Positions 1 to 29,817 of a stretch of DNA of 34,178 nt are shown here, piece after piece (the stretch's first letter is position 1; every line of letters begins with the position of its first letter). Origin of the DNA: Ignavibacteriota bacterium (GTDB lineage: Bacteria; Bacteroidota; Ignavibacteria; Kapaibacteriales; UBA2268); the NCBI GenBank assembly GCA_024636855.1, contig JAGXGG010000003.1:1-34178 (forward strand), in the 5' to 3' direction. A program made the position numbers and the translations under genes. Under the pieces are notes generated by a model. The model was not told the DNA's origin. It saw nothing but the letters and a program-made list of their open reading frames with translations, and ran no database searches.

Positions 1-340
1 AACTAAACCAGTAGAAGTTAAAGTTCCACCGATGGCAGTATTACCATTCGTTGGGTTAACATTAGTTGAACCAACAGTTAAGTTAGCACCAGCAACAGTA
101 GCACCAGCATTAGCCGTAACTAAACCAGTAGAAGTTAAAGTACCACCAACAGCAGTATTACCATTCGTTGGGTTAATTGTAGTTGAACCAACAGTTAAGT
201 TAGCACCAGCAACAGTAGCACCAGCATTAGCCGTAACTAAACCAGTAGAAGTTAAAGTTCCACCGATGGCAGTATTACCATTCGTTGGGTTAACATTAGT
301 TGAACCAATAGTTAAGTTAGCACTAGTAACATCTAAACCA
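1..340 (-). repeat. 117-bp in-frame tandem repeats in the fibre gene
   Basis: Unit boundaries fall at 1, 118 and 235, a period of exactly 117 bp (39 codons). Copies 1 and 2 and the first part of copy 3 are nearly identical at DNA level, differing at a few third-codon and Asn-Val/Thr-Ile positions. Copy 3 loses identity from about 300 onward into a related but older unit. Each unit encodes a STNVNPTNGNTAIGGTLTS-type segment. The array continues past the left edge, so the copy number is unknown. High DNA identity between adjacent units implies recent expansion or homogenisation. Confidence 0.9.
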
Positions 341-1356
341 GCTTTTGCATCAACGTTACCATTGAATGTAGTAAGTCCAGTTCCAACAGTTAAAGTCTTA
401 TTTGTTGTAATTAAAACATCACCGTTTAGCGTTGAAGTACCAGCTACAACTAAATTACCAGTATTAGGGTCAATAGTAGTACCTCCAACAGTTAAATTAG
501 AATTAGTAACAGTTGCTCCTAGTACAGTAAGTGAACCACCTACTGTCATATTTCCATTTTTCTGGATGATAAATGCATCAGATTTATTAGTTGAATCAGT
601 ACCATTACCGATTACAAAAGCTCTGTCAGCATTATCTACAGCAGTTGCGCTAACTGGAACATAAGTAGTATTATAACTACCAATAGAAACTTCACCGTAA
701 GATGGTGCAGTAGTCCCTTCACCGAATGCAACAGCACCATTACCACTTGCTTTATTATCTTTACCTGCAGCGAATGTGAAGTCACCTAAGTTTGCCTCAT
801 TCCAAGAATTTGTATTTACTCTACCTGTTCTGAATGCAGCTTTGCTATGGTCGAAGAAGAATTTAGTTTCTTCTACAGAAGAAAGTCTATCTAATTTAAC
901 CGAACCAAAGACAAAGTCATTTGTTAAGCTTGTTGTATCTGGGAAAGTAACACCTTCTGCAGAACTGAAACCATCATTCAAGATATTACCGTTACCAGTA
1001 GAAGCTTGTGTTGTTATCATATCTAATAAGTTGAATTGTGCAACTAAATTGCCACTAACTATCACATCTACTATTACGTTAGGATTGATATTAGTAGGTG
1101 TTATTCCACCCCAATCCGGATCACCTTCACCTACAACGAAAGAAACTACCCCAGAAGTATTAGGAGTCAGTGTTTTAGAAAAAACACCAGTTAATGGATA
1201 TTTTTTAACTGGATTATTTGGGTCAGTATAGTCGTTCAACTCAACAACAAACGAAGCCCCCGTTGGATAGTTTAGACCAATACGAACTGGCTCTAATGCG
1301 GTACTGCTCATATAAAGCAGAAATACCGTTGTTATTAATAGAATAAATTTTTTCAT
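1..1356 (-). CDS. Fibre/adhesin-like exported protein with 39-residue repeats (partial, runs off left edge)
   Basis: This is an open reading frame of 452 codons with no stop before base 1, so only the N-terminal part is present. The start is ATG at 1354-1356 with an AGGTG ribosome site 5-6 nt upstream. It begins with a signal peptide (MKKFILLITTVFLLYMSSTA), followed by a compact N-terminal domain (about residues 22-160). A YadA-head-like stretch follows (near residues 195-265), with phrases such as GNGAVAFGEG, YGEVSIGSYNT and RAFVIGNGTD. Then come Gly/Thr/Asn-rich repeats of the type TLTSTGLVTANAGATVAGAN. This order is common in Bacteroidota proteins that end in a phage-tail-fibre-like endosialidase chaperone (peptidase S74). 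That terminal domain would lie outside the window, so its presence is inferred. The protein is probably a trimeric surface fibre. The strand opposite contains long open frames that are only shadows of this gene. Confidence 0.85.
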   Translation of the reverse strand, partial: MKKFILLITTVFLLYMSSTALEPVRIGLNYPTGASFVVELNDYTDPNNPVKKYPLTGVFSKTLTPNTSGVVSFVVGEGDPDWGGITPTNINPNVIVDVIVSGNLVAQFNLLDMITTQASTGNGNILNDGFSSAEGVTFPDTTSLTNDFVFGSVKLDRLSSVEETKFFFDHSKAAFRTGRVNTNSWNEANLGDFTFAAGKDNKASGNGAVAFGEGTTAPSYGEVSIGSYNTTYVPVSATAVDNADRAFVIGNGTDSTNKSDAFIIQKNGNMTVGGSLTVLGATVTNSNLTVGGTTIDPNTGNLVVAGTSTLNGDVLITTNKTLTVGTGLTTFNGNVDAKAGLDVTSANLTIGSTNVNPTNGNTAIGGTLTSTGLVTANAGATVAGANLTVGSTTINPTNGNTAVGGTLTSTGLVTANAGATVAGANLTVGSTNVNPTNGNTAIGGTLTSTGLV

Positions 1357-12166: not shown

Positions 12167-12191
12167 TTCTATCTAAATATAATTGTTATTT

Positions 12192-16400: not shown

Positions 16401-16602
16401 ACCACAAACCTCCAGAAGCAGTACCTACATATATATCAGCTGGATTGCTCAGATTAACATCGATAGATGTTACTCTACCACTCATACCAGCGGGGCCTAT
16501 GTTCCTAGGGGCTAATTCTTTGAATTTACTTAGATCTACTTTTTGTGATGTTGCTACTATGGGTAATAGCAGGAGTGCTAACAAAATACATAATTTCTTC
16601 AT
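13405..16602 (-). CDS. Exported VPS10/BNR-type Asp-box beta-propeller protein
   Basis: A 1065-residue protein with a signal peptide (MKKLCILLALLLLPIVATSQ). At least ten Asp-box motifs (S/T-x-D-x-G-x-x-W) occur between residues 60 and 690, including SPNDGITW, SIDGGRTW, TTDGGKNW, TLDGGDTW, STDGGFTW, STDKGENW and TTDDGNSW. They imply one or two large sortilin-like propellers. A very charged Lys/Asp/Glu linker (about 750-790) leads to an Ig/FlgD-like domain and a helical, probably coiled-coil C-terminus. No T9SS sorting domain is visible, so it may stay in the periplasm or outer membrane. Homologues are often named glycosyl hydrolase or sortilin-like, but no catalytic residues can be assigned here. 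It overlaps the thioesterase stop by 4 nt (ATGA) and precedes the thiolase by 7 bp. Confidence 0.85.
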   Translation of the reverse strand: MKKLCILLALLLLPIVATSQKVDLSKFKELAPRNIGPAGMSGRVTSIDVNLSNPADIYVGTASGGLWYSPNDGITWEPITEELPTQSIGDVKIQQSNPDVIWLGTGEGNPRNSQSSGNGIYKSIDGGRTWKHLGLENSRNIHRIIIHRDNPDIVYVGAQGPAWGETEDRGVFRTTDGGKNWEKVLYVNEKTGIADLIVDPSNPNKMFAAMWEFRRWPWFFKSGGEGSGLYMTLDGGDTWKELTDEDGLPKGELGRIGLAISQSNRDIVYALVEAKDNGFYKSTDGGFTWKNQNTENIGGRPFYYADIRVDPKNENRIYNVHSVIDKSEDGGKSFQNMIAYYADGVHPDHHAFWINPSNPDHIIDGNDGGLAISKDRGANWRFVENLPVAQFYHISVDNDVPYRVYGGMQDNGSWIGPSSVWRSGGIRNAYWEELSFGDGFDVVPDPSDKRYGYSMSQGGNVSRYDLETGGTNFIKPVHPVDSITLRFNWNAAISPDPFDTKTIYFGSQYLHKSTDKGENWEIISPDLTTNDPEKQKQDSSGGLTFDATGAENYTTILAIAPSPLNDKMIWVTTDDGNIQLTTDDGNSWQNKTGNLGGAAIGSWIPQIRPSTYNESECYVVVNDYRRNNWEPYLLYTNNKGGSWTNILQGKGIGSFVSSFIQDPIEPNLMFLGTEFGLYISFNQGKDWQKWTEGYPSVPTLDMEIQERENDLVIGTFGRAAWIFDDISAFREVAKEGAELLEKPLTLFPVNTSYMVSTKQPAGARFGGKSMYDGTNERMGVRFTFNINKPKAKKKDKKEDKDEEKDDDKEKKKDKGPSKDSLTVRIYDMSGTEVRTLFMKVDTAIQRYYWGFETNGVRGPGSKKPEKETTPPGSISVLPGKYKAVFTYMNTSDSAEFTVEHDPRVEYKMSDLVAVKKLFNKLEESISDATEAMDKVNEAEEKIGIYEKLMEANKELEKDSLSKRTKAIKDSIESIKVYLRGKSGLKGIVRREDTFNHHSGYAQYYLGSAMASPNSTQRVMAERIERMSGELVSKVNTFLENEWTDYQSYIQNLDFELFKKIEKVKK

Positions 16603-17030
16603 TCAGATTCCTCTATCCAATTCTTGTCTGTTCTATAAGCTGTGCCACGGAAAAGTCCGACTAGCTCGCCTTTCTGATTTTTTACTTCTACGTCTAATAT
16701 CGCTGTTTTGGGTGAAAGCGAGATAGTCTTTGCAGTGGCTGTTATTACCTCGCCTTCCTTTGTTGCCTTAGGGTATTGCATAATTACTGAAGTGGAAACG
16801 GCTTTTTTCCCGTATGAGTTGGAAGCGAAAGCAAATGCACTATCAGCTAGCGAATACGAAATGCCGCCATGCATTATATCAAATCCATTGAGCATTTCCT
16901 TGCGGACGGTCATTTTCAGATGACAATATCCCCGCTCTATAGTAACTAGCTCTATCCCAAGCCATTTGCTAAATGGGTCATTATCGTACATTTGGTGAAA
17001 AACATTTTCAGCAATTTTTAGGTCAGTCAT
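16599..17030 (-). CDS. paaI: PaaI-family hotdog-fold acyl-CoA thioesterase
   Basis: A 143-residue single-domain hotdog protein. It carries the PaaI signature NGFDIMHGGISYSLADSAFA at residues 48-67, including HGG 54-56 and the catalytic Asp63. The family hydrolyses (hydroxy)phenylacetyl-CoA and other aryl/acyl-CoA thioesters in the cytosol, often to release trapped CoA. It is first gene of an operon with an exported propeller (4-nt overlap) and a thiolase. The gene symbol rests on family motif only; without the rest of a phenylacetate cluster the physiological substrate remains open. The region upstream carries a segment shared with the next gene upstream (17061-17099). Confidence 0.85.
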   Translation of the reverse strand: MTDLKIAENVFHQMYDNDPFSKWLGIELVTIERGYCHLKMTVRKEMLNGFDIMHGGISYSLADSAFAFASNSYGKKAVSTSVIMQYPKATKEGEVITATAKTISLSPKTAILDVEVKNQKGELVGLFRGTAYRTDKNWIEESE

Positions 17031-17060: not shown

Positions 17061-17099
17061 ATAAATTAAACAAATCTTGAGTATTTTCCATATTGGTTG
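17061..17099 (-). promoter_or_regulatory. Upstream element shared with the 17124-17534 gene (copy 1)
   Basis: This 39-bp segment matches 17567-17605 in the same orientation with 5 mismatches. The distal 20 bp (17080-17099) have only one. Read on the minus strand it starts caac(c/a)aatatggaaaatact and contains a TTTG about 20 bp before a TA-rich segment. It ends 30 bp upstream of the paaI start. It is probably a duplicated promoter or operator (inference). Confidence 0.5.
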
Positions 17100-17123: not shown

Positions 17124-17534
17124 TTAACCTAACATTGTAGGTGATAGAATTGTCTTACTCAGGATAATTGCAATTATTTTAAGAGCCCCAATAATTACGA
17201 TTAATAGATTAATCAAATGGAAAATTAAATATTTCCCTTTTACTTGTTTTACCTTTTTTATTTTGATGAAATACAATATATTAATTAGGAAAACTAATAT
17301 TGCAGTGATAGTAAAAAACTCATCTAATCTCTCATTTACTTGATTGAATAATACCATTTCATAACTTAAGACAGTGTTTATATTTTCATTTATAAACCTT
17401 TCATACCCTAACACTATATAGCCAATTGAAAGACTAAAAAAGCTAATTAAAAAAAAAGTGATATTTTCTATTTGTAAAAAAGTGAATAGATGTTCATTTC
17501 TATATTGAATGAATTTGTGTATTAAATTCGGCAT
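17124..17534 (-). CDS. Small hypothetical membrane protein
   Basis: A 136-residue protein not recognised as a known family. An amphipathic N-terminus (MPNLIHKFIQYRNEHLF) is followed by three hydrophobic helices at about residues 25-45, 72-92 and 103-127. The loop between the first and second (about 46-70) is acidic and Asn-rich; the one between the second and third is Lys-rich (KIKKVKQVKGK). By the positive-inside rule this puts that loop in the cytoplasm. No Shine-Dalgarno sequence is seen before the ATG. Its upstream region is a near copy of that of the paaI operon just downstream, so the two may be co-regulated. Confidence 0.6.
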   Translation of the reverse strand: MPNLIHKFIQYRNEHLFTFLQIENITFFLISFFSLSIGYIVLGYERFINENINTVLSYEMVLFNQVNERLDEFFTITAILVFLINILYFIKIKKVKQVKGKYLIFHLINLLIVIIGALKIIAIILSKTILSPTMLG

Positions 17535-17566: not shown

Positions 17567-17605
17567 ATAAATTAATCAAAACGTAAGTATTTTCCATATT
17601 TGTTG
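17567..17605 (-). promoter_or_regulatory. Upstream element shared with the paaI operon (copy 2)
   Basis: This is the counterpart of 17061-17099: the same orientation and 34 of 39 bases identical. It ends 32 bp upstream of the start of the small membrane protein gene, against 30 bp for copy 1. Conserved position relative to two unrelated genes suggests a promoter/operator element. Confidence 0.5.
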
Positions 17606-17730: not shown

Positions 17731-19020
17731 ATGAAAAACTTATTATTAACCCTAATGCTTGTTGTATTTGCGAGTACAACAATCAAAGCTATTGAAATAG
17801 ACACACTATGGCTCAGAATAGCTGGAGCTGGAGTCCAAGAACTAGACTTTACACCTGATGACAAGTATGTAATTGCTTGGACGAATGCAATAGAGTTTTG
17901 GGAGAAACAACAAGGAGTAAAGGAATTTTCAATTCCAATAGATGTCAAAGCGGTTGGGGATTTTAACTACAACAAGGAAATTCTTGTTTTTGCAAAAGAT
18001 AGTACGCCTAAACTTTTAGATTGGGAAACAAAAGATATTATTGAGGGATTTGAGAAACAAGAAACATTTTTAGGAAGAATAAGAACCGCTAAATCTAAAA
18101 ATGAATTTATGGCAACAAAAGGTCATCACCCAAAAGTAATTTACTTTTGGGATATTAATCAGAAGCAAATACTAGATAGTATTGAGATTATGAAAGAGTT
18201 TGAAAAAAATAACCAGAAATGGGGACGGTCAATTCATGAATATGATTATGTTGGTAATAATGATGAATATTTTTATATTCGGATTAATGATAATAATGCT
18301 TTAACATCAGGATTAAATCCTAAATATGAGGTTGATAATTTTAGTTATTTAATATATAGTAGAGAAACAAAAGAATTGGTTGACTCTTTATTTGCATTTC
18401 AAGTATCTTTTGAAAATTATAACCACGTGGATAAGATGGTTGTTATGAATGACAGAACTAATTTGGCTTGGAATAATAAAGGTGGTGAAATAAATTTTTA
18501 TAATGTTATTCAAAAAAGATTTTATAAAAAATTCTTCAGGAATGATTTTTCTATGGTTAATGACATTGAGTTTAATAACGATGACAAGTTAATTAGCTTG
18601 ACTTACGGAGTAATAAATGTATTTGACCTTGATAACAGTGGTTTATTTGCTTCATTTAACACCAGATCATCATATGGACAATGTAAGCTTTCACAAAATA
18701 AACAATTCATGATAGGAAGCGTTGGGAGTATCTTAATTATGCATCCTGTAACTTTAACTTCAGTTGAAACGAATGCACTTAAAAGCCAAACCACCATTTC
18801 TCCCAACCCCACAAGCAGTATTGTGAACATAGAGCTGAACTGCTCGGAACCGTTGGTGGACTATAAGATAACTGATATTAATGGCGCGACAGTCTCGCAG
18901 GCAACTATCGCAAATCAGTTTGGGAGTCTTCAAATTGATTTCTCGGCTTATACAACAGGGGTTTATTTCCTGACTATCAACTGCAATGAGCCTATGACTT
19001 ATAAGATAATCAAGGAGTAG
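17731..19020 (+). CDS. T9SS-exported WD40-like propeller protein, paralog 1
   Basis: A 429-residue protein with a signal peptide (MKNLLLTLMLVVFASTTIKA). A WD40/YVTN-like propeller region follows (about 30-345), with blade phrases DFTPDDKYVIAWTN, KVIYFWDINQKQILDS and NLAWNNKGGEINFYN. The T9SS type A sorting domain (about 355-429) begins SPNPTSSIVNIELN and ends MTYKIIKE. It is expected on the cell surface or released. The next gene, six bases downstream, is a paralog: the N-terminal and C-terminal thirds are highly similar, while about residues 250-345 are unrelated. The AAGGAG near the stop of this gene serves as ribosome site for paralog 2. The codon composition of the sorting domain is noticeably richer in G+C than the rest. 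Confidence 0.88.
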   Translation: MKNLLLTLMLVVFASTTIKAIEIDTLWLRIAGAGVQELDFTPDDKYVIAWTNAIEFWEKQQGVKEFSIPIDVKAVGDFNYNKEILVFAKDSTPKLLDWETKDIIEGFEKQETFLGRIRTAKSKNEFMATKGHHPKVIYFWDINQKQILDSIEIMKEFEKNNQKWGRSIHEYDYVGNNDEYFYIRINDNNALTSGLNPKYEVDNFSYLIYSRETKELVDSLFAFQVSFENYNHVDKMVVMNDRTNLAWNNKGGEINFYNVIQKRFYKKFFRNDFSMVNDIEFNNDDKLISLTYGVINVFDLDNSGLFASFNTRSSYGQCKLSQNKQFMIGSVGSILIMHPVTLTSVETNALKSQTTISPNPTSSIVNIELNCSEPLVDYKITDINGATVSQATIANQFGSLQIDFSAYTTGVYFLTINCNEPMTYKIIKE

Positions 19021-19026
19021 AATATT

Positions 19027-20349
19027 ATGAAAAAAGTACTTTCAGCCCTATTACTTTTTACTTTTATAACCACAATGATTATGGCAGAGGTAGGAGGTGA
19101 TGACAAAATTATTTGGACAAACTCGAATCAACAATCAAGAAAGTTAGATTTTACACCTAATGATAAGTATATAATTGCTTGGACTAATGAAATACAAATA
19201 TGGAATACTTCTAATGGAAAAATTGAATTTTCAATCCCTACTGAGGTTCTGGGTGACTTTAACTACAACGAGGAGTATCTTGTTTTTGCACAAGACAGTA
19301 CTCCAAAACTTTTAGATTGGAAGACTAAAGAGTTACTAGAAGGTTTTGAAAAAGAAGAAACATTTTTAGGGAAAATAAGAACCGCTAAATCTAAAAATGA
19401 ATTTATGGCTACAAAAGGGGATTACCCAAAAGTTATATACTTTTGGGATATTAATCAGAAACAAATTCTAGATAGCTTTGAGATAATTAAAGAATTTGAA
19501 AGTAATGGACAAACATGGGGCAGGTCAATTCATGAATATGATTATGTCGGTAATAATGACGAATACTTTTATGTTCGGATTAATGATAATAATGCATTGA
19601 CACCAGGATTAAATCCTAAAAATGAGGTGGATAATTTTAGCTATTTAATATATAATAGAGAAACAAAAGAATTGGTTGACTCTTTATTTGCATTTCAAAT
19701 TACAACCAGTAATTTTAATCATGTAGATAAATTAGTTGTAATGAATAATAGAAATAATCTAGCGTGGAATAATAAAAATAGCCAGATACAAATATATAAT
19801 GTAAACAGTCATAGCTTCAATTCAAGAATTGAATTAACTTTCGAAAATGAAGTGGATGAAATAATTTTCTCAAATTATAACAATGTCTTTTATGTAAGTA
19901 GGCCTAGCCCTTCAAAGTACTTAGAGTTATATAGCTATAACACAACAACTCTTGAAAAACAATTCATATTCTTGAAGCATATCATTTCTAATAAAGTCGC
20001 ATTCAATAGTAATAACTCATTAATAGCCTTTAGCGGAATTGATAGTTTAGGTCTTGATATTATTGGCATAATAAATAATGACAATCAATCTAATATTAAT
20101 TCAGAATACAAATCAGTACTCAATCTCTTTCCCAACCCCACAAGCAGTATTGTGAATATAGATTTGAATTGCTCTGAACCCGTGGTGGACTATCAGATAA
20201 CTGATATAAATGGAGCGAAAGTCTCGCAGTCAACTAAAGCAAATCAGAATGGAAATCTTCAAATCGATTTGTCTAGCTATTATGCTGGGGTTTACTTTCT
20301 GACTATCAACTGCAATGAGCCTATGACTTATAAGATAATCAAGGAGTAG
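19027..20349 (+). CDS. T9SS-exported WD40-like propeller protein, paralog 2
   Basis: A 440-residue protein with a signal peptide (MKKVLSALLLFTFITTMIMA), a propeller-like middle and a C-terminal T9SS type A domain (FPNPTSSIVNIDLN to MTYKIIKE). Residues of about 60-240 follow paralog 1 closely (TAKSKNEFMATKG, GRSIHEYDYVGNNDEYFY). The segment of about 250-360 is different. The final 51 nt including the stop are identical to those of paralog 1 (18970-19020 against 20299-20349). Translation can initiate from AAGGAG at the end of paralog 1. A palindrome followed by nine T lies 37 nt after the stop and probably ends transcription. Confidence 0.88.
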   Translation: MKKVLSALLLFTFITTMIMAEVGGDDKIIWTNSNQQSRKLDFTPNDKYIIAWTNEIQIWNTSNGKIEFSIPTEVLGDFNYNEEYLVFAQDSTPKLLDWKTKELLEGFEKEETFLGKIRTAKSKNEFMATKGDYPKVIYFWDINQKQILDSFEIIKEFESNGQTWGRSIHEYDYVGNNDEYFYVRINDNNALTPGLNPKNEVDNFSYLIYNRETKELVDSLFAFQITTSNFNHVDKLVVMNNRNNLAWNNKNSQIQIYNVNSHSFNSRIELTFENEVDEIIFSNYNNVFYVSRPSPSKYLELYSYNTTTLEKQFIFLKHIISNKVAFNSNNSLIAFSGIDSLGLDIIGIINNDNQSNINSEYKSVLNLFPNPTSSIVNIDLNCSEPVVDYQITDINGAKVSQSTKANQNGNLQIDLSSYYAGVYFLTINCNEPMTYKIIKE

Positions 20350-21300: not shown

Positions 21301-21738
21301 TTACTTTGTAGTTTTATCTTCGTAAAGTTCTGTGAATATTTCGTCTATTGGCTCCCAAAACTCAATCTTATTTCCTTCGGGATCTATGATATGAGCGAAT
21401 TTGCCATAGTCAAAGGTCTCTATTTCACCGACTATTTGCACGCCATCGGCACGAAGGTTTTCTATAAGCTTTTCTATGTTTTGGACACGATAATTAATCA
21501 TGTATTGCTTATCGGAAGGGGAGAAGTACTCAGTATTCTTCTCAAAGGGGCTCCATTGTAGATATCCCTTTTGCTCAGGATTATCTGAGTCTCTGAATTC
21601 GAATAGAGAGCCATATTCGTTAGTAACTAAACCTAGCTTTTCAGAATACCAATTTCTCATATTCTCAGGACTCTCGCTTTTGAAGAATATGCCACCTATC
21701 CCAATAACTTTGGGCTCTTTTTCAGATGATTCTGCCAT
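21301..21738 (-). CDS. VOC-family (glyoxalase/bleomycin-resistance fold) protein
   Basis: A 145-residue protein with two beta-alpha-beta-beta-beta halves. The first reads KVIGIGGIFFKSESPENMRN, with WYSEKLGL as the usual helix. The second includes YMINYRVQNIEKLIENLRAD and ends HIIDPEGNKIEFWEP, where the DPxGNxxEFW motif and its Glu are typical metal-site elements. VOC enzymes include lactoylglutathione lyases, dioxygenases and resistance proteins; the substrate cannot be assigned. The start codon overlaps the upstream lipoprotein stop (TAATG), making it the last gene of a ridA operon. Confidence 0.85.
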   Translation of the reverse strand: MAESSEKEPKVIGIGGIFFKSESPENMRNWYSEKLGLVTNEYGSLFEFRDSDNPEQKGYLQWSPFEKNTEYFSPSDKQYMINYRVQNIEKLIENLRADGVQIVGEIETFDYGKFAHIIDPEGNKIEFWEPIDEIFTELYEDKTTK

Positions 21739-22436
21739 TATCTTGCTTTGCCTCCTCTTTTGTCTTTTACGTTAAAGTCAGTCATTTGCATAGTAGTAAG
21801 CAATTCACCTGGGGCACCATATTGTTCAGTTTTTATTAGCCCAATCCCCTCAGCAAAATAGTATCTAGTTCGTACAGTTTTATTACCATCTATTCTATTA
21901 TCTTTATACATTTTCAATTCACGTTTATTTAGCTCACGTAATTCCTCAAGTACCCAGACTTGATATTCACCCTTTGGTACTTTTATAGTTTGCTGTCCTC
22001 GCCAAATAAATCCTTCTTTGTTCTCGACTTGTTCACCTTCTTTTGGGTTGTTAGGTACTACCCAACCAGACTGCAATTCTTTGTAATACCAATCATTTAC
22101 AGTTAGTAAATGCGTACCATTTTCACATTTCACGAAGTAGAAATTCATGCTTTTTTTGCCATCACGGCAAGCTCTGTATGCCTCAAATGGGATTCGCTCA
22201 CCATTTTGGACATAGTAAATAGTATCCAAATCGCATAACTCGAGTTTGTAATCTTCCCTTGTCTCTTCACCATCTACTATTTTAGTTACATCGTAAGTCC
22301 AGCTGTTGCCCGCTTCAATAGGGAAATACATAGACGTAAGACCTTTGTCTTGAAAATCAGTGCAAGGCGGTTGGAAACCACTGGTCTTGCATCCATACAG
22401 TGTTATTGCTATTAGTACTATCAGTATTTTTTTCAT
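21738..22436 (-). CDS. Putative lipoprotein of unknown function
   Basis: A 232-residue protein with a lipoprotein signal peptide and lipobox LYGC (lipidated Cys16). The mature part is rich in beta strands. A motif near the N-terminus reads YFPIEAGNSWTYDVTKIVDG, common in Bacteroidota lipoproteins. Later segments include GFIWRGQQTIKVPKGEYQVW and YYFAEGIGLIKTEQYG. It may be periplasmic or on the outer membrane. It overlaps ridA by 4 nt and the VOC gene by 1 nt, so it is translated from the same transcript. No function can be given. Confidence 0.75.
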   Translation of the reverse strand: MKKILIVLIAITLYGCKTSGFQPPCTDFQDKGLTSMYFPIEAGNSWTYDVTKIVDGEETREDYKLELCDLDTIYYVQNGERIPFEAYRACRDGKKSMNFYFVKCENGTHLLTVNDWYYKELQSGWVVPNNPKEGEQVENKEGFIWRGQQTIKVPKGEYQVWVLEELRELNKRELKMYKDNRIDGNKTVRTRYYFAEGIGLIKTEQYGAPGELLTTMQMTDFNVKDKRGGKAR

Positions 22437-22867
22437 TGTTTAGTTTCTTCTATTATTGCTATACATTTTAGTTCGATTGCGATAGGAGTAGGCAAACTAT
22501 GGATACCTAGAGTCGTTCTCGCTGGTTGATTATCTTTGAAATACTCTGCGTAAATCTTATTATATTTCGGAAAATCATCTTTCATATTAGTAAGAAACAC
22601 AGTAACATCGATTAAGTTACACCAATCGCTACCACAAGCCTCTAAAATTAGCTTTACATTATTGAAAACGGAGTGGCATTGAGTCTCTATATCGTAGCTT
22701 TCTATATTGCCATTTGGATCCAAAGTTACACCGGGAATTTCTTTTTTGCCACGTTCTCTAGGCCCTACACCGGAGAGGAAAAGAAGATTCCCTACTTGTC
22801 TAGCGTGAGGGTATAGTCCTACTGGCTCTGGTGCTTTATCCGAATTTAATCTAATATCATTACTCAT
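22433..22867 (-). CDS. RidA/YjgF/UK114-family enamine or imine deaminase
   Basis: A 144-residue protein of family length. Motifs include GNLLFLSGVGPRERG, the ARTT active-site arginine loop (about residues 115-118) and IAIELKCIAI at the C-terminus. RidA proteins hydrolyse reactive enamine/imine intermediates from PLP enzymes. The longer central loop (KKEIPGVTLDPNGNIE) resembles 2-aminomuconate-deaminase-like members, so a catabolic role is possible. It heads an operon with a lipoprotein (4-nt overlap) and a VOC protein. Its 5' leader is a close copy of that of the neighbouring T9SS gene (24865-24942). Confidence 0.88.
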   Translation of the reverse strand: MSNDIRLNSDKAPEPVGLYPHARQVGNLLFLSGVGPRERGKKEIPGVTLDPNGNIESYDIETQCHSVFNNVKLILEACGSDWCNLIDVTVFLTNMKDDFPKYNKIYAEYFKDNQPARTTLGIHSLPTPIAIELKCIAIIEETKQ

Positions 22868-22946
22868 ATTTTACTACAAAAGTGTTTTTGTTAAAATTTA
22901 TTTTCTGTAATATAATAAACACGCATAACATTACTAAATGAAAGTG
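22868..22946 (-). promoter_or_regulatory. Duplicated promoter/leader, copy 1 (upstream of ridA)
   Basis: The distal 41 bp (22906-22946) are identical to 24902-24942. The proximal 38 bp up to the ATG align with 24865-24901 at roughly three quarters identity. On the minus strand it contains gttatgcgtg, then tattatatta, a plausible -10-like region. It lies directly upstream of the ridA start, at the same distance as copy 2 from its gene. Confidence 0.65.
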
Positions 22947-22992
22947 GATAATATGGATTATATTGTACAAATCACACGGTTAAATTATTACC

Positions 22993-24864
22993 TTACCTCA
23001 CTATCTCTATTATCTCAGTTTTAGTAATTGTTGGGGTTGTTAGTTTTATGTAGTAGCGGCCAGATTGGAAGTCATTTATGTTAACTGTGTATTCGTTATT
23101 ACCCATTGCCGCTTCCCCCGAATATAAGTCAACTATTCTTCTACCTAATACATCATATATTTCAAGAGTAATATCGGTGTTTTCCTCTAGTATGACAGTC
23201 ACTATAACAGAACTATTTTGCTCATTAGTATATGCGTAATAATCAAAGTCAGGGATGATAGTTTCCTCAGGTGCTTTTATTGAAAATACTGCGTCTGAGG
23301 TGTCGGATTGGAGGGGTTGAGATGAACCAGCTATTTTAAGAATCCAAGAATCATATCCCCCTTTTGGGTTTGTTATATCTCCATCGAAAGAGTTTGAATA
23401 ACCTGCGACTAGATAGTTGCCATTCAATGTTTGAACTATTGATTGTGCTACATCAGAACCTTTTCCACCGTACGATTTATGCCAGTCAAGTTTTCCGTCT
23501 TCTTTTAATTTTAAAACCCAATAATTACCTCTTGGTATGATATTGTCAGGAACAAATTTTGAAGAATTACCCGCAACAATATAGTCACCATCTAATGTTT
23601 GAATTATTGAATATGCTACATCAGAACCAATTATTCCAAATGACTTTGCCCATTCTAAATCTCCATTATTTTTTAACTTTAATATCCAATAGTCAAAAAA
23701 ACCATTTGGTCCGGCATTATCAAATTCTGGTGAGTTACTATAACCCGCAACTATATAGCCACTATCTAATGTTTGAATTATTGAATATGCTTCATCATTA
23801 CCACTGCCTCCATAAGATTTTTGCCATTCAAGCTCTCCATATCTATTCAATTTTAATATCCAATAGTCGCCACCCCCTTTGGGATTTGAAACGTCTCCAT
23901 CATTAGAAAAACTATTACCAGCTACTATATAGCCGCTATCAAATGTTTGAGTTATTGATTTAGGGAAGTCTTCACTACTCCCTCCATAGGATTTTTCCCA
24001 CTCTAATTCACCATCATTTTTCAACTTGACAATCCAATAATCTCTATCTCCTAAGGGGTTAGAAATATCTCCGTCTGATGATTCACTGTAGCCTGCAACT
24101 ATATAACCACCATCTGATGTTTGAGTAATTGAATAAGGAAAGTCATTACCACTGCCTCCATAAGACTTTTCCCACTCTAATTCACCATCATTTTTCAACT
24201 TGATAATCCAATAATCTCTATCAGTTAATTTATCTCCTTTAGGATTAGAAATGTCACCTTCTGATGATTTACTGTAACCTGTAACTATATAGCCACCATC
24301 TAATGATTGATTAATTGATAGTGCTACATCGTCTAACTTACCTCCAAAAGATTTTTCCCACTCTAATTCACCATCATTTTTCAACTTGACAATCCAATAA
24401 TCATTATTTCCTAAAGGGTTAGAAATATCTCCGTCTGATGATTCACTTGAACCAGCAACTATAAAACCACCATCAAAGGTTTGCGCTACTGAAAAAGCTC
24501 TATCTATACTACTTCCTCCAAAAGATTTTTGCCAAATAATACTTCCTTCTTCTTGAGCTGAGTCTTTTGAAATTACTTTGTGGCTAACTAAAAATAAACA
24601 ACTATCTGACTCAATTTGAGGTACCTTCCAATCGAAACTTAACCCAACGGTTGAGTCTGCAACTGTACTCCAAGTTACTCCATTGTCGGGACTAAACTCT
24701 AGCTTTATTTTCGTCGTGTCTGGTACTCCTTCCCAGCTTATCGTTGTTTCAGCCCCTGCCTCAAATACTTCACCTCCGTTCGGGTGAGTGAGTTTCAACT
24801 CGTCGGAAATCAGTCCCTGATTTGAAAGCATTATTAGTGCTAATATTATGTGAATAGGTCTCAT
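22993..24864 (-). CDS. T9SS-exported protein with seven propeller repeats
   Basis: A 623-residue protein with a signal peptide (about residues 1-20). A PNGGE Ig-like domain follows (about 24-95; THPNGGEVFEAGAETTISW). Seven repeats of about 57 residues (about 108-510) come next, each with W-x-K-S-(F/Y)-G, D-x-GYIVAG-x-S and DYW-(I/V/L)-(V/L)-KLK. These probably form a seven-bladed propeller. The last ~80 residues are a T9SS type A sorting domain (LEIYDVLGRRIVDLYSG, SGRYYIKL). It is a surface or secreted protein of unknown ligand. Repeats 2, 3 and 4 share near-identical DNA (compare 24001-24030, 24178-24207 and 24361-24390), so the array expanded recently. It lies upstream of ridA but has its own leader. 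Confidence 0.88.
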   Translation of the reverse strand: MRPIHIILALIMLSNQGLISDELKLTHPNGGEVFEAGAETTISWEGVPDTTKIKLEFSPDNGVTWSTVADSTVGLSFDWKVPQIESDSCLFLVSHKVISKDSAQEEGSIIWQKSFGGSSIDRAFSVAQTFDGGFIVAGSSESSDGDISNPLGNNDYWIVKLKNDGELEWEKSFGGKLDDVALSINQSLDGGYIVTGYSKSSEGDISNPKGDKLTDRDYWIIKLKNDGELEWEKSYGGSGNDFPYSITQTSDGGYIVAGYSESSDGDISNPLGDRDYWIVKLKNDGELEWEKSYGGSSEDFPKSITQTFDSGYIVAGNSFSNDGDVSNPKGGGDYWILKLNRYGELEWQKSYGGSGNDEAYSIIQTLDSGYIVAGYSNSPEFDNAGPNGFFDYWILKLKNNGDLEWAKSFGIIGSDVAYSIIQTLDGDYIVAGNSSKFVPDNIIPRGNYWVLKLKEDGKLDWHKSYGGKGSDVAQSIVQTLNGNYLVAGYSNSFDGDITNPKGGYDSWILKIAGSSQPLQSDTSDAVFSIKAPEETIIPDFDYYAYTNEQNSSVIVTVILEENTDITLEIYDVLGRRIVDLYSGEAAMGNNEYTVNINDFQSGRYYIKLTTPTITKTEIIEIVR

Positions 24865-24942
24865 AGTTCAGTGCAAAGGTATTATTGTTAAATTTTATTT
24901 TTGTAATATAATAAACACGCATAACATTACTAAATGAAAGTG
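24865..24942 (-). promoter_or_regulatory. Duplicated promoter/leader, copy 2 (upstream of the seven-repeat T9SS gene)
   Basis: 24902-24942 is identical over 41 bp to 22906-22946 and lies 38 bp from its start codon (39 bp for copy 1). The similarity continues, weaker, to the ATG and stops sharply beyond the distal end. The two downstream proteins (RidA enzyme and T9SS propeller) are unrelated, so the element was duplicated independently of the coding sequence. Confidence 0.65.
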
Positions 24943-25053
24943 ATTAAATAAGAAAGAATATGGAAATTAGATATATAATAGAATATTTATTCGATATTCT
25001 TTATTTGTTGGATAGTTAATATAATCAATAATGGAAATAATATGGTACTAAAA

Positions 25054-25644: not shown

Positions 25645-25785
25645 AATAATCACCTTTTGTTTATTAAAAATGTTAATTATAGCAATAACGTAATAAAAAT
25701 AAAACACAATTCCAAATATTAGTCATTATTATAAAGGATTTAGCGCTAAATGAGAAAGCTCGATAGGACTTAAAGGAATTCTAAT

Positions 25786-25950
25786 ATCAAAACAAATACA
25801 ATTGAACAGAAATTTAGTGAAATAATGATTTTGAATCTAAGTTACAAAATAGAGTTTTAACCAATTGAGTCGGAAAACCATGATCATAAAAAACCTTTGT
25901 AGTGAAAAAACTACAAGGGTTTTTATTTGTGAGTCCAGAGGGAAATTCGA
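25786..25950 (+). repeat. Duplicate of receptor 3' end, terminator and tRNA 3' end (copy A)
   Basis: 25786-25882 is identical over 97 bp to 27118-27214 and holds the last 24 codons plus stop of the TonB-receptor remnant. The similarity continues, diverged, through a hairpin (25889-25924; 15-bp stem with one wobble, then T-run) to about 25950. There gagtccagaggga corresponds to the 3' end of the tRNA gene (gggcccagaggga). The rest of the gene-free stretch 25645-26145 shows nothing else clear apart from presumed promoters. Confidence 0.85.
25889..25926 (+). terminator. Terminator hairpin in copy A
   Basis: A 15-bp stem (aaaaacctttgtagt / actacaagggttttt, one GU pair) with a gaaaaa loop, A-run before and T-run after, so it can work on both strands. 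It corresponds to the hairpin at 27221-27257. Where copy B has an inner C-A mismatch, copy A is paired. Confidence 0.7.
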
Positions 25951-26145
25951 GCTGTATTTAGCTCCATTCCGAAAATCTTGATAATTAAGTATATTTGCTA
26001 AAGATTAGATCTTATCCCTTATTAAATTTTGTATAAACCTAACTAATAGTTATGTTAACCTTTACAATATAACCAATGCTGGATATGATTAAGTTTAATA
26101 GTAAACTTATTTCAATTGTTGGCAGTAATTAAACCCCAAAAAATT

Positions 26146-26538: not shown

Positions 26539-27192
26539 AGTTAGTATTGAACCATATTCTCAATATTTGAGTATTATACCTGTTTCGCCTAATAGTTACA
26601 AAACAACTCTTAACACTCAGAATAATTTGTTTTTCAATTCACCATTAGTAGGTAATGGAACTGGTAGAAATATGGGTATTGATTTTACCCTGGAACGATA
26701 CTTAAATAAAGGATTATACTTTCTCTTATCTGCTTCAATATTTGATTCCAAATACACTGCAAATGATGGAGTTGAACGCAATACAAGATTTAATAAAAAC
26801 TATATATTCAATGCAACTATCGGTAAAGAATGGCAAATGGGTAAAAACGATGATAACCTACTTAGCGCAAATTTACACTTAATTATTATGGGGGTAATAG
26901 AATAGAATCCATTGATTTAAACAATTCCCAATTAAGAAAGGACATAATTTATGGGGAAACAAATGGTGAACTCTCATTTGCTAATAAGAATACAGATACT
27001 CCAATGCTTTCTTTTACTATTTCATATAGAACTAATTATCAAAACAGCTCATCTGTATGGACTCTACAGATGCTTAATGCAACTAGTACGAAAGAATTTG
27101 ACAAGGACTATTATAACATCAAAACAAATACAATTGAACAGAAATTTAGTGAAATAATGATTTTGAATCTAAGTTACAAAATAGAGTTTTAA
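26521..27192 (+). pseudogene. C-terminal remnant of a TonB-dependent receptor/outer-membrane barrel, frameshifted
   Basis: The reading frame LTENLKVSIEPYSQYLSIIP, then NMGIDFTLERYLNKGLYFLLSASIF-type strands and FNKNYIFNATIGKEWQMGK, matches the last third of Bacteroidota TonB-dependent receptors with a carboxypeptidase-regulatory N-terminus. At about 26877-26883 one base is missing (expected His-Leu-Asn-Tyr-Tyr-Gly-Gly), after which the frame continues RIESIDLNNSQLRKDIIYGE to LNLSYKIEF and a terminal Phe. About 220 codons remain; the plug and most of the barrel are absent. The left end abuts the small membrane protein gene. Family assignment is by motif recall and the last Phe; the frameshift is seen directly. 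Confidence 0.75.
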
Positions 27193-27283
27193 CCAATTGA
27201 GTCGGAAAACCATGTTCGTAAAAAAACCCTTGCAGTGTAGAACTACAAGGGTTTTTTGTTTGTGGGCCCAGAGGGACTTGAAC
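27118..27283 (+). repeat. Receptor 3' end, terminator and tRNA 3' end (copy B)
   Basis: This is the intact partner of copy A: 97 bp identical (27118-27214), then diverged similarity across the terminator and into the first ~20 bp of the tRNA gene as read on the plus strand. The two copies are direct repeats about 1.33 kb apart. Confidence 0.85.
27221..27257. terminator. Bidirectional terminator between receptor remnant and tRNA
   Basis: A 12-bp perfect stem (aaaaaacccttg / caagggtttttt), extendable inside by agt/act, with A- and T-tracts on both sides. It serves the plus-strand remnant and the minus-strand tRNA, whose 3' end is 6 nt away. Confidence 0.85.
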
Positions 27284-27336
27284 CCCCGGCCAACGGATTA
27301 TGAGTCCGTTGCTCTAACCAACTGAGCTATGGGCCC
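27263..27336 (-). tRNA. tRNA with CAU anticodon (elongator Met, or Ile2 with modified C34)
   Basis: A 74-nt cloverleaf: acceptor GGGCCCA paired with TGGGCCC plus discriminator A, D-arm GCTC/GAGC with AGTTGGTTA loop, anticodon stem ACGGA/TCCGT with loop CTCATAA (anticodon CAT), and T-arm GGGGG-TTCAAGT-CCCTC. CCA is not encoded. It is not initiator-like, as the first pair G-C is normal. CAU may be read as Met or, after lysidine modification, as Ile (AUA). The acceptor and D-arm sequence would suit either. Confidence 0.93.
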
Positions 27337-27417: not shown

Positions 27418-28185
27418 TTAAAAATTCACTAGCCCTACCATTACTCCAAATCCGACTTTCAATCCAGAAATATCAAAATTGGGGTTAACTGTTGAAGTTC
27501 CTATTGTATTATGTGTCCACTTAGTATCTTGACCTATTGTTAGGTTGTAACTTGCATCAGCTCTTATTATAATGAAATTAGCAAGTGCATATTCTAATTG
27601 AATATTTGGCATTGCAAAAAAGTAGTTTTTCTCTAATCTATCAGTCCCAAAAGCACCAACTTGTTTAACATCATCTATTGTAGTTGAGGAGGCAAATGTC
27701 TCATAGGTTATATCACCCCAACCTGCATTAACGCCAGCTAATATAGCAAAGTGTTCAAAAGGGACATATCCATAGTGCATACTAAACCCAAACATACTTG
27801 CAGTTAAACTTACTTGCTTTTTCCCTAAAATTGCGGAATCTTGAGCAGTTGACATTGGATAATCAGCCTGATCTGACTCTATACTTCCCCCATATCCAAA
27901 TACTCCTAGTCTCAAATTTTTCACCCAAGGAATACCCGTTAATCCTTGACCACCTGTCAATTGAATAGGTGATGAAAGTTGTAATTCTGGACAATCACAG
28001 AATGAATTGAGATTATCTTCTTTTATCATTAGCCAATCGAAAGTAACACCACCAGCTAAAACAAAATAATCTAGTGATTCTTGCTTCATTGGTTCATTAT
28101 CGAATGGCAAGTCCATATCATCGTCCTGTGCCGTTAGGAACATCGGGAACATAATTAGCGACAGTAGTAATAATATTTTTTTCAT
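27418..28185 (-). CDS. Outer-membrane beta-barrel protein, tandem paralog 3
   Basis: A 255-residue protein with a signal peptide (MKKILLLLSLIMFPMFLTAQ) and an acidic N-terminal stretch (DDDMDLPFDNEP). Barrel strands follow (YFVLAGGVTFDWLMI, LRLGVFGYGGS, SMFGFSMHYGYVPFEHFAIL, ANFIIIRADASYNLTIG), with final Phe in GLVNF. It is the last of three adjacent paralogs. The family is PorT/OmpW-like in appearance but not identified. It lies 21 bp after paralog 2. A Cys pair (CDCP, about residues 62-65) is absent from the other two. Confidence 0.8.
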   Translation of the reverse strand: MKKILLLLSLIMFPMFLTAQDDDMDLPFDNEPMKQESLDYFVLAGGVTFDWLMIKEDNLNSFCDCPELQLSSPIQLTGGQGLTGIPWVKNLRLGVFGYGGSIESDQADYPMSTAQDSAILGKKQVSLTASMFGFSMHYGYVPFEHFAILAGVNAGWGDITYETFASSTTIDDVKQVGAFGTDRLEKNYFFAMPNIQLEYALANFIIIRADASYNLTIGQDTKWTHNTIGTSTVNPNFDISGLKVGFGVMVGLVNF

Positions 28186-28206
28186 GTTCTTATATTTTTT
28201 TAAAAA

Positions 28207-29016
28207 TTAAAAATTAGCCAATCCAATCATTATTCCAAACCCAACTTTCAGACCAGATAAATCTAAATCTGAATTTTCACTGCTAGTTCCTAAGTTGTTG
28301 AATGTCCACTTGTCATCTTGTGCAAATGTTAGATTGTACGATGCGTCTACTCTTAGGATTATGAAGTTTGCAAGAGCATATTCTAACTGAATATTAGGCA
28401 TAGCGAAAAAGAAATTTTTATCAAGTCTGTTCATTCCAGAGCTATAGGGACTATTTTCTTGGTAAGTAACCCTATCTTGATTGACAACGGAACCACTCAT
28501 CTCATGAGTTATATCGCCCCAACCAGTATTCACACCACCAAGTACAGCGAAATGCTCGAATGGGACATATCCATAGTGCAGTGAAAAACCGAACATGCTT
28601 GCTGTTAATGTTCTTTGTGAATGAGAACGGCTAGGTTCTGGATTTGGGGTGAAAACAATTGTAGGTAAATCAAGAGTTCCAGATTCTTTACTACCACCAT
28701 AGCCAAATACACCTATTCTTAGATTTTTCACCCAGGGAACACCTACAACACATTGTCCTCCTAACAGTTGAATTGATCCAGAGAGTAAAAGCTCATCTGG
28801 TAATTCACTTGAATTTCCAACAAGAAAACTATTCAAATCGTCATCTTTTATCATCAGGAAATCATAAGTAACACCACCAGCTAAAACAAAGTATTCAAGT
28901 GATTTTTGCTTTATTGGTTCATTATCGAATGGTAAATCTATCTCATCGTCTTGTGCCGTTAGTAACATCGGAAATAAAAGAACCGAAAGTAGCAATAATA
29001 TTTTCATTATATTCAT
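28207..29016 (-). CDS. Outer-membrane beta-barrel protein, tandem paralog 2
   Basis: A 269-residue protein. By comparison with its paralogs the start may be the second Met (29007, MKILLLLSVLLFPMLLTAQ). The strands are as in paralog 3 (YFVLAGGVTYDFLMI, LRIGVFGYGGSKESG, SMFGFSLHYGYVPFEHFAVL), ending GLANF. Insertions of differing length fall between the conserved strands, notably near residues 110-125 and 165-190, probably surface loops. It sits 15 bp after paralog 1 and 21 bp before paralog 3, in the same transcript. Confidence 0.8.
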   Translation of the reverse strand: MNIMKILLLLSVLLFPMLLTAQDDEIDLPFDNEPIKQKSLEYFVLAGGVTYDFLMIKDDDLNSFLVGNSSELPDELLLSGSIQLLGGQCVVGVPWVKNLRIGVFGYGGSKESGTLDLPTIVFTPNPEPSRSHSQRTLTASMFGFSLHYGYVPFEHFAVLGGVNTGWGDITHEMSGSVVNQDRVTYQENSPYSSGMNRLDKNFFFAMPNIQLEYALANFIILRVDASYNLTFAQDDKWTFNNLGTSSENSDLDLSGLKVGFGIMIGLANF

Positions 29017-29031
29017 ATATTAAACTTGATA

Positions 29032-29817
29032 TTAGAAATTAGCTAAACCAATCATAACTCCAAAACCAACTTTCATACCATTTAAGTTGAAGTCTGGGTT
29101 TACAGAATTTGAACCTAAATTGTTATAAGTCCAATCTGTATCCTGCCCTACTGTCAGATTATAACTAGCGTCTGCTCTTAATACAATAAAACTAGTTATA
29201 GCATATTCTAACTGTATATTAGGCATAACGAAGAAGTAATTTTTTTCAAATCTTGAAACACCAAAAGGAATGGTTGTTTGAGCATCTTTTGGACTTGTAA
29301 TAGCGTTAAAACTTTCATAAGTTACATCACCCCATCCAGCATTAACTCCACCAAGTATTGCGAAATGTTCGAATGGTACATATCCGTAATGAACACTAAA
29401 CCCAAACATACTAGCAGTTAAACTTGTCTGAGAGCTAAACGTACTTGTAAATGGGTCACCATTTGGATCTATCCATGGGTAATTTTCTTCTAATAAATCC
29501 GACTCTACACTACCACCATAACCAAATACACCGAATCTTAGATTCTTAATCCATGGAAGCCCTAAAACACCTTGACCACCAGTTAACTGAATAGGTCCTG
29601 AAAGAGTTAAATCGCCTGAGTTACCCAAAAAAGAATTTAAGTTGTCTTCGTTTATCATTAGAAAGTCGTAAGTAACACCACCAGCTAATACGAAATATGT
29701 ACGATCGTCATCTCTTAGCGGCTCATTATCGAAAGGTAGGTTATCTATTTCGTCATCTTGTGCAGTTAGGAACATCGGTAACATAAGTACTGACATTAAT
29801 AATAATATTTTTTTCAT
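29032..29817 (-). CDS. Outer-membrane beta-barrel protein, tandem paralog 1
   Basis: A 261-residue protein with a signal peptide (MKKILLLMSVLMLPMFLTAQ). The same barrel strands (YFVLAGGVTYDFLMI, LRFGVFGYGGSVES, SMFGFSVHYGYVPFEHFAIL) end in MIGLANF. It is first in the three-gene array, with GGAGAAAC before the ATG, the only one of the three with a good ribosome site. The three proteins differ mainly in the predicted loops. Confidence 0.82.
   Translation of the reverse strand: MKKILLLMSVLMLPMFLTAQDDEIDNLPFDNEPLRDDDRTYFVLAGGVTYDFLMINEDNLNSFLGNSGDLTLSGPIQLTGGQGVLGLPWIKNLRFGVFGYGGSVESDLLEENYPWIDPNGDPFTSTFSSQTSLTASMFGFSVHYGYVPFEHFAILGGVNAGWGDVTYESFNAITSPKDAQTTIPFGVSRFEKNYFFVMPNIQLEYAITSFIVLRADASYNLTVGQDTDWTYNNLGSNSVNPDFNLNGMKVGFGVMIGLANF

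Follow-up and report, generated by a model that had tools for sequence, protein, structure and literature searches.

Mobile promoters, as reportedly described by Matus-Garcia et al. in 2012 and van Passel et al. in 2014, are said to be near-identical upstream sequences dispersed over a genome. A different way for a promoter to reach a second gene is promoter capture by tandem duplication, which was described for newly arrived genes by Li and Bock 2019 (via the accessible part of PMC11111574). In Arabidopsis, transposed genes are flanked by direct repeats that are homologous to the target site in a sister species, and the part of the report accessible to us proposes insertion of a recombination circle (PMC2869330). 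For Ignavibacteriota, we found no report of a promoter-duplicating gene insertion in a literature search that reached few subscription papers.

The window, i.e., the whole analyzed stretch of 34,178 nucleotides, is contig C23 of assembly G000 (3.1 Mb). We compared G000 with three genus mates that are available as MAGs, G001 (3_bin.102), G002 (HKST-UBA125) and G003 (HGW-Ignavibacteriae-4, Ignavibacteriota). The window contains two copies of a segment with a 41-bp core, hereafter R. The copy in front of ridA is denoted R1 and the copy in front of a gene with a T9SS sorting tail R2. The features of the locus are:

21301 to 22436, minus strand: rest of the ridA cluster, a 232-aa protein and a 145-aa glyoxalase-family protein (gene calls, Pfam)
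22433 to 22867, minus strand: ridA, the resident gene of R (PF01042; protein 96–97% identical in the three genus mates)
22877 to 22946, minus strand: R1, the ridA copy of the putative promoter region, with the 41-bp core at 22906–22946 (sequence, genome search)
22877 to 22884, minus strand: -7-like box of R1, CACTTTTG, one base off TAnnTTTG
22993 to 24864, minus strand: apparently inserted gene between R1 and R2, encoding a secreted 623-aa repeat protein with a T9SS C-terminal sorting tail (PF18962 above cut-off)
24874 to 24942, minus strand: R2, the second copy, before the T9SS-tailed gene, with the 41-bp core at 24902–24942 and an outer flank like that of the single G003 R
24874 to 24881, minus strand: putative -7 box of R2, TACCTTTG, ending 9 bases before the ATG of the T9SS gene

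A first-pass annotation of this DNA had reported identity over 41 bp between 22906–22946 and 24902–24942, and the window sequence bears this out. The two cores have their near ends 39 and 38 positions away from the first start-codon base of ridA (22867) and of the T9SS gene (24864), respectively, both on the minus strand and again as reported. Over 70 bp, R1 and R2 were 93% identical. The downstream proteins are indeed unrelated, i.e., one belongs to the RidA family (PF01042) and the other carries a T9SS sorting tail (PF18962). The 232-aa protein of the ridA cluster had a weak DUF3108-like match below cut-off.

The first-pass annotation had suggested searching the genome for the core. An 81-bp query had 21 matches at E ≤ 10 in the 3.1-Mb assembly G000, among which only R1 (100%) and R2 (93% over 70 bp) were strong; the third-best match covered 22 bp (E = 0.06) and the remainder were weaker. 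Likewise, a 33-bp core with up to three mismatches was found at two places in G000, and its backward control at none. With just two copies, 2 kb apart, R is not a dispersed repeat, and a genome-wide regulon is ruled out as well.

A relaxed R pattern detected the segment in all four genus genomes, with one copy each in G003 and G002 and two each in G000 and G001. In every one of these genomes one copy precedes ridA, and we therefore regard R as native to ridA. The gene order of the ridA cluster is identical in G001, G002 and G003. Within the genome contig collection the pattern matched three stretches, all from the three genus mates, and among viral contigs it had no match. No R was visible by eye in front of three distant ridA relatives from outside the genus (E ≤ 1e-40).

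Positions 21301–22945 and 24860–24969 of the window map onto overlapping stretches of G003 contig C12, i.e., 34729–33085 and 33167–33055, respectively. On its inner side the single R of G003 corresponds to R1 and on its outer side, over 27 bp or so, to R2; no 623-aa T9SS gene separates ridA from the upstream flank in this genome. We hence read G003 as the empty site and the two R copies in the window as the borders of an insertion. Outer-flank likeness between R2 and G003 is short, about 40 bp, with p = 0.01, compared with p = 0.44 for R1 and R2 (200 shuffles per pair, 15 pairs, raw p values). A sharp distal end of the repeat, which had been claimed earlier, is thus found for R1 and R2 (extension score 3), whereas in other pairs the likeness continues for a further 17 to 41 bases. 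The same annotation had proposed that a regulatory segment was copied without its gene. Its view of R as regulatory-looking can be kept, as R is native to ridA, precedes two unrelated genes and has a predicted promoter box at a fixed distance from the start. Copying without the gene is not supported in that form; the comparison with G003 gives a gene-sized insertion bordered by R copies.

The explanation that we favour, with somewhat more confidence than doubt, is that a new gene came to lie next to a resident promoter, which was duplicated and would now serve both genes. In an ancestor, an accessory T9SS-tailed gene, co-oriented with ridA, would have been placed between ridA and the neighbouring gene upstream. 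The promoter region would have been doubled during arrival, such that ridA kept R1 and the new gene obtained R2. Each copy has a TAnnTTTG-like box at its inner end, which would be recognized by RNA polymerase carrying the housekeeping sigma factor. Since the R copies are direct repeats, recombination between them could remove the gene and would leave a single R, as in G003. The gene would most likely have entered by recombination at promoter homology with DNA from a relative, i.e., with a linear or circular piece that carried the gene and an R-like promoter. Our main reason for preferring this route is that the divergence between the window copies is about as large as that between the species; insertion of a repeat-formed circle, or promoter capture through tandem duplication, could have led to the same arrangement.

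A misjoin during metagenome assembly could also place two R copies on one contig. The genomes with identified records are metagenome assemblies, and coverage of the G001 contig is listed as 0.85. We nevertheless consider an artefact extremely improbable, as R1 and R2 are not identical, a second assembly (G001) shows a like layout with other cargo, and both outer and inner flanks agree with G003.

R in gene sense consists of the core followed by an AT-rich leader that ends in a -7-like box. In flavobacteria, the -7 box of promoters read by the housekeeping sigma factor is TAnnTTTG (PMC9723704, accessible part). It is exact in four of the six R copies, i.e., window R2 (TACCTTTG), G002 and G001 R1 (both TACTTTTG) and G001 R2 (TACATTTG), and one base off in window R1 and G003 (both CACTTTTG). 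The motif was enriched close to starts in three genomes, being found at most 60 bp from the start in 25 of 163 (G000), 24 of 137 (G003) and 17 of 61 (G002) usable upstream regions; the corresponding counts were 7, 7 and 5 for the reversed motif and 15, 6 and 2 for the opposite strand. Between the two G001 copies, likeness stops one base past the box, and the second copy continues into its own leader. In five of six copies, only 9–10 bases separate the end of the box from the start codon, whereas the genome peak is at 20–40. The predicted message would hence be nearly leaderless, which speaks against the promoter reading; leaderless messages amount to 5.5% in F. psychrophilum (PMC9723704, accessible part). 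In the favoured explanation, R is the putative promoter region of the ridA gene cluster.

Strict conservation of the distal part against drift in the leader had been taken as a sign of selection on a binding site, and this argument turned out to be weak. In the 90 bp upstream of 15 usable G000–G003 orthologs, ridA included, identity ranged from 74 to 97% with a median of 87%, which is also the value for R before ridA. For nine genes compared between G000 and G002 the median was 81%, with 84% for R before ridA. Exceptional conservation of R was thus not found; being conserved like other upstream regions, R before ridA gives no demonstration of binding-site selection.

Weaker likeness does reach both ATGs in the window, as had been stated. 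Across 15 pairs of R copies (39 core and 29 leader columns, raw p values), the window pair differed at none of the core and six of the leader columns (p = 0.004) and the G001 pair at none and four, respectively (p = 0.03). G002 against G001 R2 also gave p = 0.03, because G002 is identical to G001 R1, and the remaining 12 pairs were above 0.05. A core that is constant within genomes beside a drifting leader, and that lies directly upstream of the putative promoter, would suit the earlier proposal of shared regulation, i.e., that the core is a selected operator or activator site, copied so that the T9SS gene follows ridA regulation. We regard this as unlikely: conservation of R before ridA does not exceed the local background, two copies in G000 leave no wider regulon, the two species pairs are unlike at 5 of the 39 core bases, and the core contains no significant inverted repeat (best palindrome p about 0.5). 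Nothing in the present data shows a common regulator for the T9SS gene and ridA.

G001 and G002 were 97.7% identical over 3125 bp until just beyond R, and the second R of G001 lies 1.5 kb farther. The G001 copies enclose three unrelated small ORFs (134, 130 and 128 aa) whose products look lipoprotein-like by eye; relatives of the 134-aa ORF occur elsewhere in G000 and G003 (45–48% identity). Two species hence carry different cargo between R copies on the ridA side, the T9SS gene in G000 and the three small ORFs in G001. The same site with different cargo would also be expected if R were the attachment site of a site-specific recombinase and the gene with its R a mobile cassette. Two observations point in this direction: R has constant arms whereas its centre varies from one species pair to the other, and G002 has a Phage_integrase gene at a distance of about 1 kb from R. 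However, an integrase near R is found only in G002, where it adjoins a tRNA-Met end copy as the likelier target, the palindrome search in the core was negative, and the repeats at the thioesterase and accC loci (see below) are unrelated in sequence. We hence consider a recombinase cassette very unlikely.

The interval between tRNA-Met and R measures 2.3 kb in the window and about 16 kb in G003, and is thus probably an island site. A 116-bp direct repeat (97%) at 25778–25952 and 27110–27336 of the window flanks small ORFs, includes a terminator and carries a partial tRNA-Met end copy (27262–27336). A similar tRNA-end copy adjoins the Phage_integrase gene in G002 (L044, 6466–6531 and 6683–7477). 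Window positions 27418–29817 hold three paralogous genes in tandem, each about 260 aa long, and similar genes adjoin the tRNA-Met of G003. At the contig end (window 1–361), a 117-bp unit is present in three tandem copies (87–94%).

Promoter capture by tandem duplication within the locus offers another origin of the two copies. A block of gene and R upstream of ridA would have doubled, with R becoming fused to the gene start and the outer copy eroding later. In both the window and G001, the end of a T9SS-tail gene lies immediately upstream of R. The match between the flank of window R1 and G001 R2 extends from R across the spacer and into this gene end (81% over 188 bp). The R2 junction places a ridA-type promoter region at the T9SS gene start, as promoter capture expects, and capture of that kind has been described for E. 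coli (PMC11111574, accessible part). Against this, no T9SS remnant is seen upstream of R2 in the window, where the flank resembles G003, whereas G001 has a T9SS-tail gene upstream of its R2. Moreover, the genes inserted at the thioesterase and accC loci have no second copy alongside. We therefore see tandem duplication as possible rather than probable.

The match of the R1 flank has to be weighed against the fact that T9SS-tail DNA is common to several genes in three of the four genomes. The stretch at window 22993–23120 and its counterparts (L059, L060, L062, L058, L061) are 83–92% identical over 63–76 bp between genes of G000, G001 and G003. The likeness of the R1 flank to the flanks of G001 R2 and G002 is in keeping with a more complicated history. 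Two leader states are common to window R1 and G003 but missing from R2, which at these positions equals G001 and G002. Under the favoured explanation, either the duplication would predate the split of G000 and G003, with loss in G003 via recombination between the copies, or R2 would have come from another lineage. Concerted evolution of the core was considered in view of its species-pair-specific centre and rejected. G003 alone has G for T, and the window copies keep the T of G001 and G002, so that the window pair is explicable without homogenization.

A second case was found in the window at a thioesterase gene:

16599 to 17030, minus strand: resident gene of the 4HBT thioesterase family (PF03061)
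17061 to 17099, minus strand: inner copy of a 39-bp upstream segment, 30 bases before the thioesterase gene
17124 to 17534, minus strand: apparently inserted 136-aa gene, no Pfam match, unrelated to the thioesterase
17567 to 17605, minus strand: outer copy (87%), 32 bases before the 136-aa gene

G003 and G002 each have one 39-bp copy at this site without the 136-aa gene, which had no match at E ≤ 0.01 anywhere in these two genomes. The outer copy before the new gene is nearest to the single copy of G003 and G002, including its flank, and the resident thioesterase has the diverged copy. Next to this locus, a tandem pair of paralogous genes lies at 17731–20349; the first of the two has a T9SS sorting tail.

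A third case concerns a biotin-carboxylase-like gene, which we take to be accC. Here, 139-bp copies with two differences flank a 135-aa gene in G003; G000 has one copy and lacks this gene there. G001 also has the 135-aa gene, which is split there across two contig ends; the G001 copies show 19 differences in 136 positions. With the gene present in both genomes, 2/139 differences in G003 compared with 19/136 in G001 fit recent homogenization in G003.

Alignment of G000 to G003 (114,872 bp) gave three repeat-bordered insertions, those at the ridA and thioesterase loci and one on C106. The last of these has a duplicated gene 3′ end as its repeat and was therefore rejected as a promoter case. Two G000/G003 indels, on C47 and C106 (there with a 7-bp repeat), and one more against G002 (window 12171–12189) had no long repeat. 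Other indel rows were paralogous genes (window 19018–20131), and the G000–G003 tally leaves out C13 and two C106 rows. A pair on C20 of G000 (118-bp repeat, 96%) was set aside as it was without a clear empty site.

We also compared 921 upstream regions from the four genomes, within each genome and at a cut-off of 48 bits, in a non-random sample that includes the window and contigs partly picked for weak R or T9SS-relative matches. Among 2858 pairs of unrelated genes no more than 8 kb apart, 15 shared an upstream segment, as did 14 of 214,724 other pairs. All 15 near sharing pairs were co-oriented, compared with 1552 of 2858 in the background. In 400 kb of E. coli K-12, the sole foreign control genome and one with a different base composition, the counts were 0 of 971 near and 4 of 26,995 other pairs. 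A laxer cut-off gave 21 near pairs and 20 others. On inspection of 14 of these 21 near pairs and one distant pair, some were promoter-like (G001 R, accC, thioesterase), and terminator hairpins (C14, L163, L181) and coding-end-like segments (C13, L174) occurred as well. The process is hence not special to promoters, and the survey supports the view that local duplication of intergenic segments is frequent in the genus, with no promoter-only rule. At 70646–88373 of G003 contig C14 (L185–L201, L149), one terminator-like hairpin precedes several unrelated small genes in a cassette-like manner.

Duplications may survive only where both genes retain a promoter, which would make promoters seem special. 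It is a doubtful, tentative generalization that single genes are taken up recurrently in a perhaps promoter-linked manner, with an upstream region of 39–139 bp duplicated to give a removable promoter-gene cassette. Each locus would then repeat its own promoter, and a dedicated repeat family would not be required. Such insertions would explain upstream sequence common to unrelated neighbours, which is easily misread as shared regulation. Promoter-duplicating insertion may moreover be one way in which newly arrived genes become switched on. For the question of how such genes come to be expressed in bacteria, insertions of this kind with empty sites in sister species would give natural, datable cases.

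Like mobile promoters, R is a near-identical upstream sequence before non-homologous genes of one genome. Mobile promoters are reportedly dispersed, in contrast to the R copies, which are local, adjacent, co-oriented and 2 kb apart, and each of our loci has its own sequence. With the Bacteroidota sigma-A promoter, R shares the TAnnTTTG box at its inner end, exact in four of six copies (PMC9723704, accessible part); it differs in that this box is unusually near the start codon in five of six copies. As in promoter capture (Li and Bock 2019, in the part of the citing source accessible to us), a neighbouring putative promoter would have been duplicated in front of a gene, which there led to expression. 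In that work, however, laboratory selection was applied and the gene itself was duplicated, whereas at the ridA locus only a short putative promoter region is doubled and the gene is single. The transposed Arabidopsis genes, finally, resemble our cases in that a moved gene lies between direct repeats that match the target site of a sister species. According to the accessible part of that report, these are plant genes with mostly genic repeats, whereas the present cases are bacterial and their repeats are often putative promoter regions.
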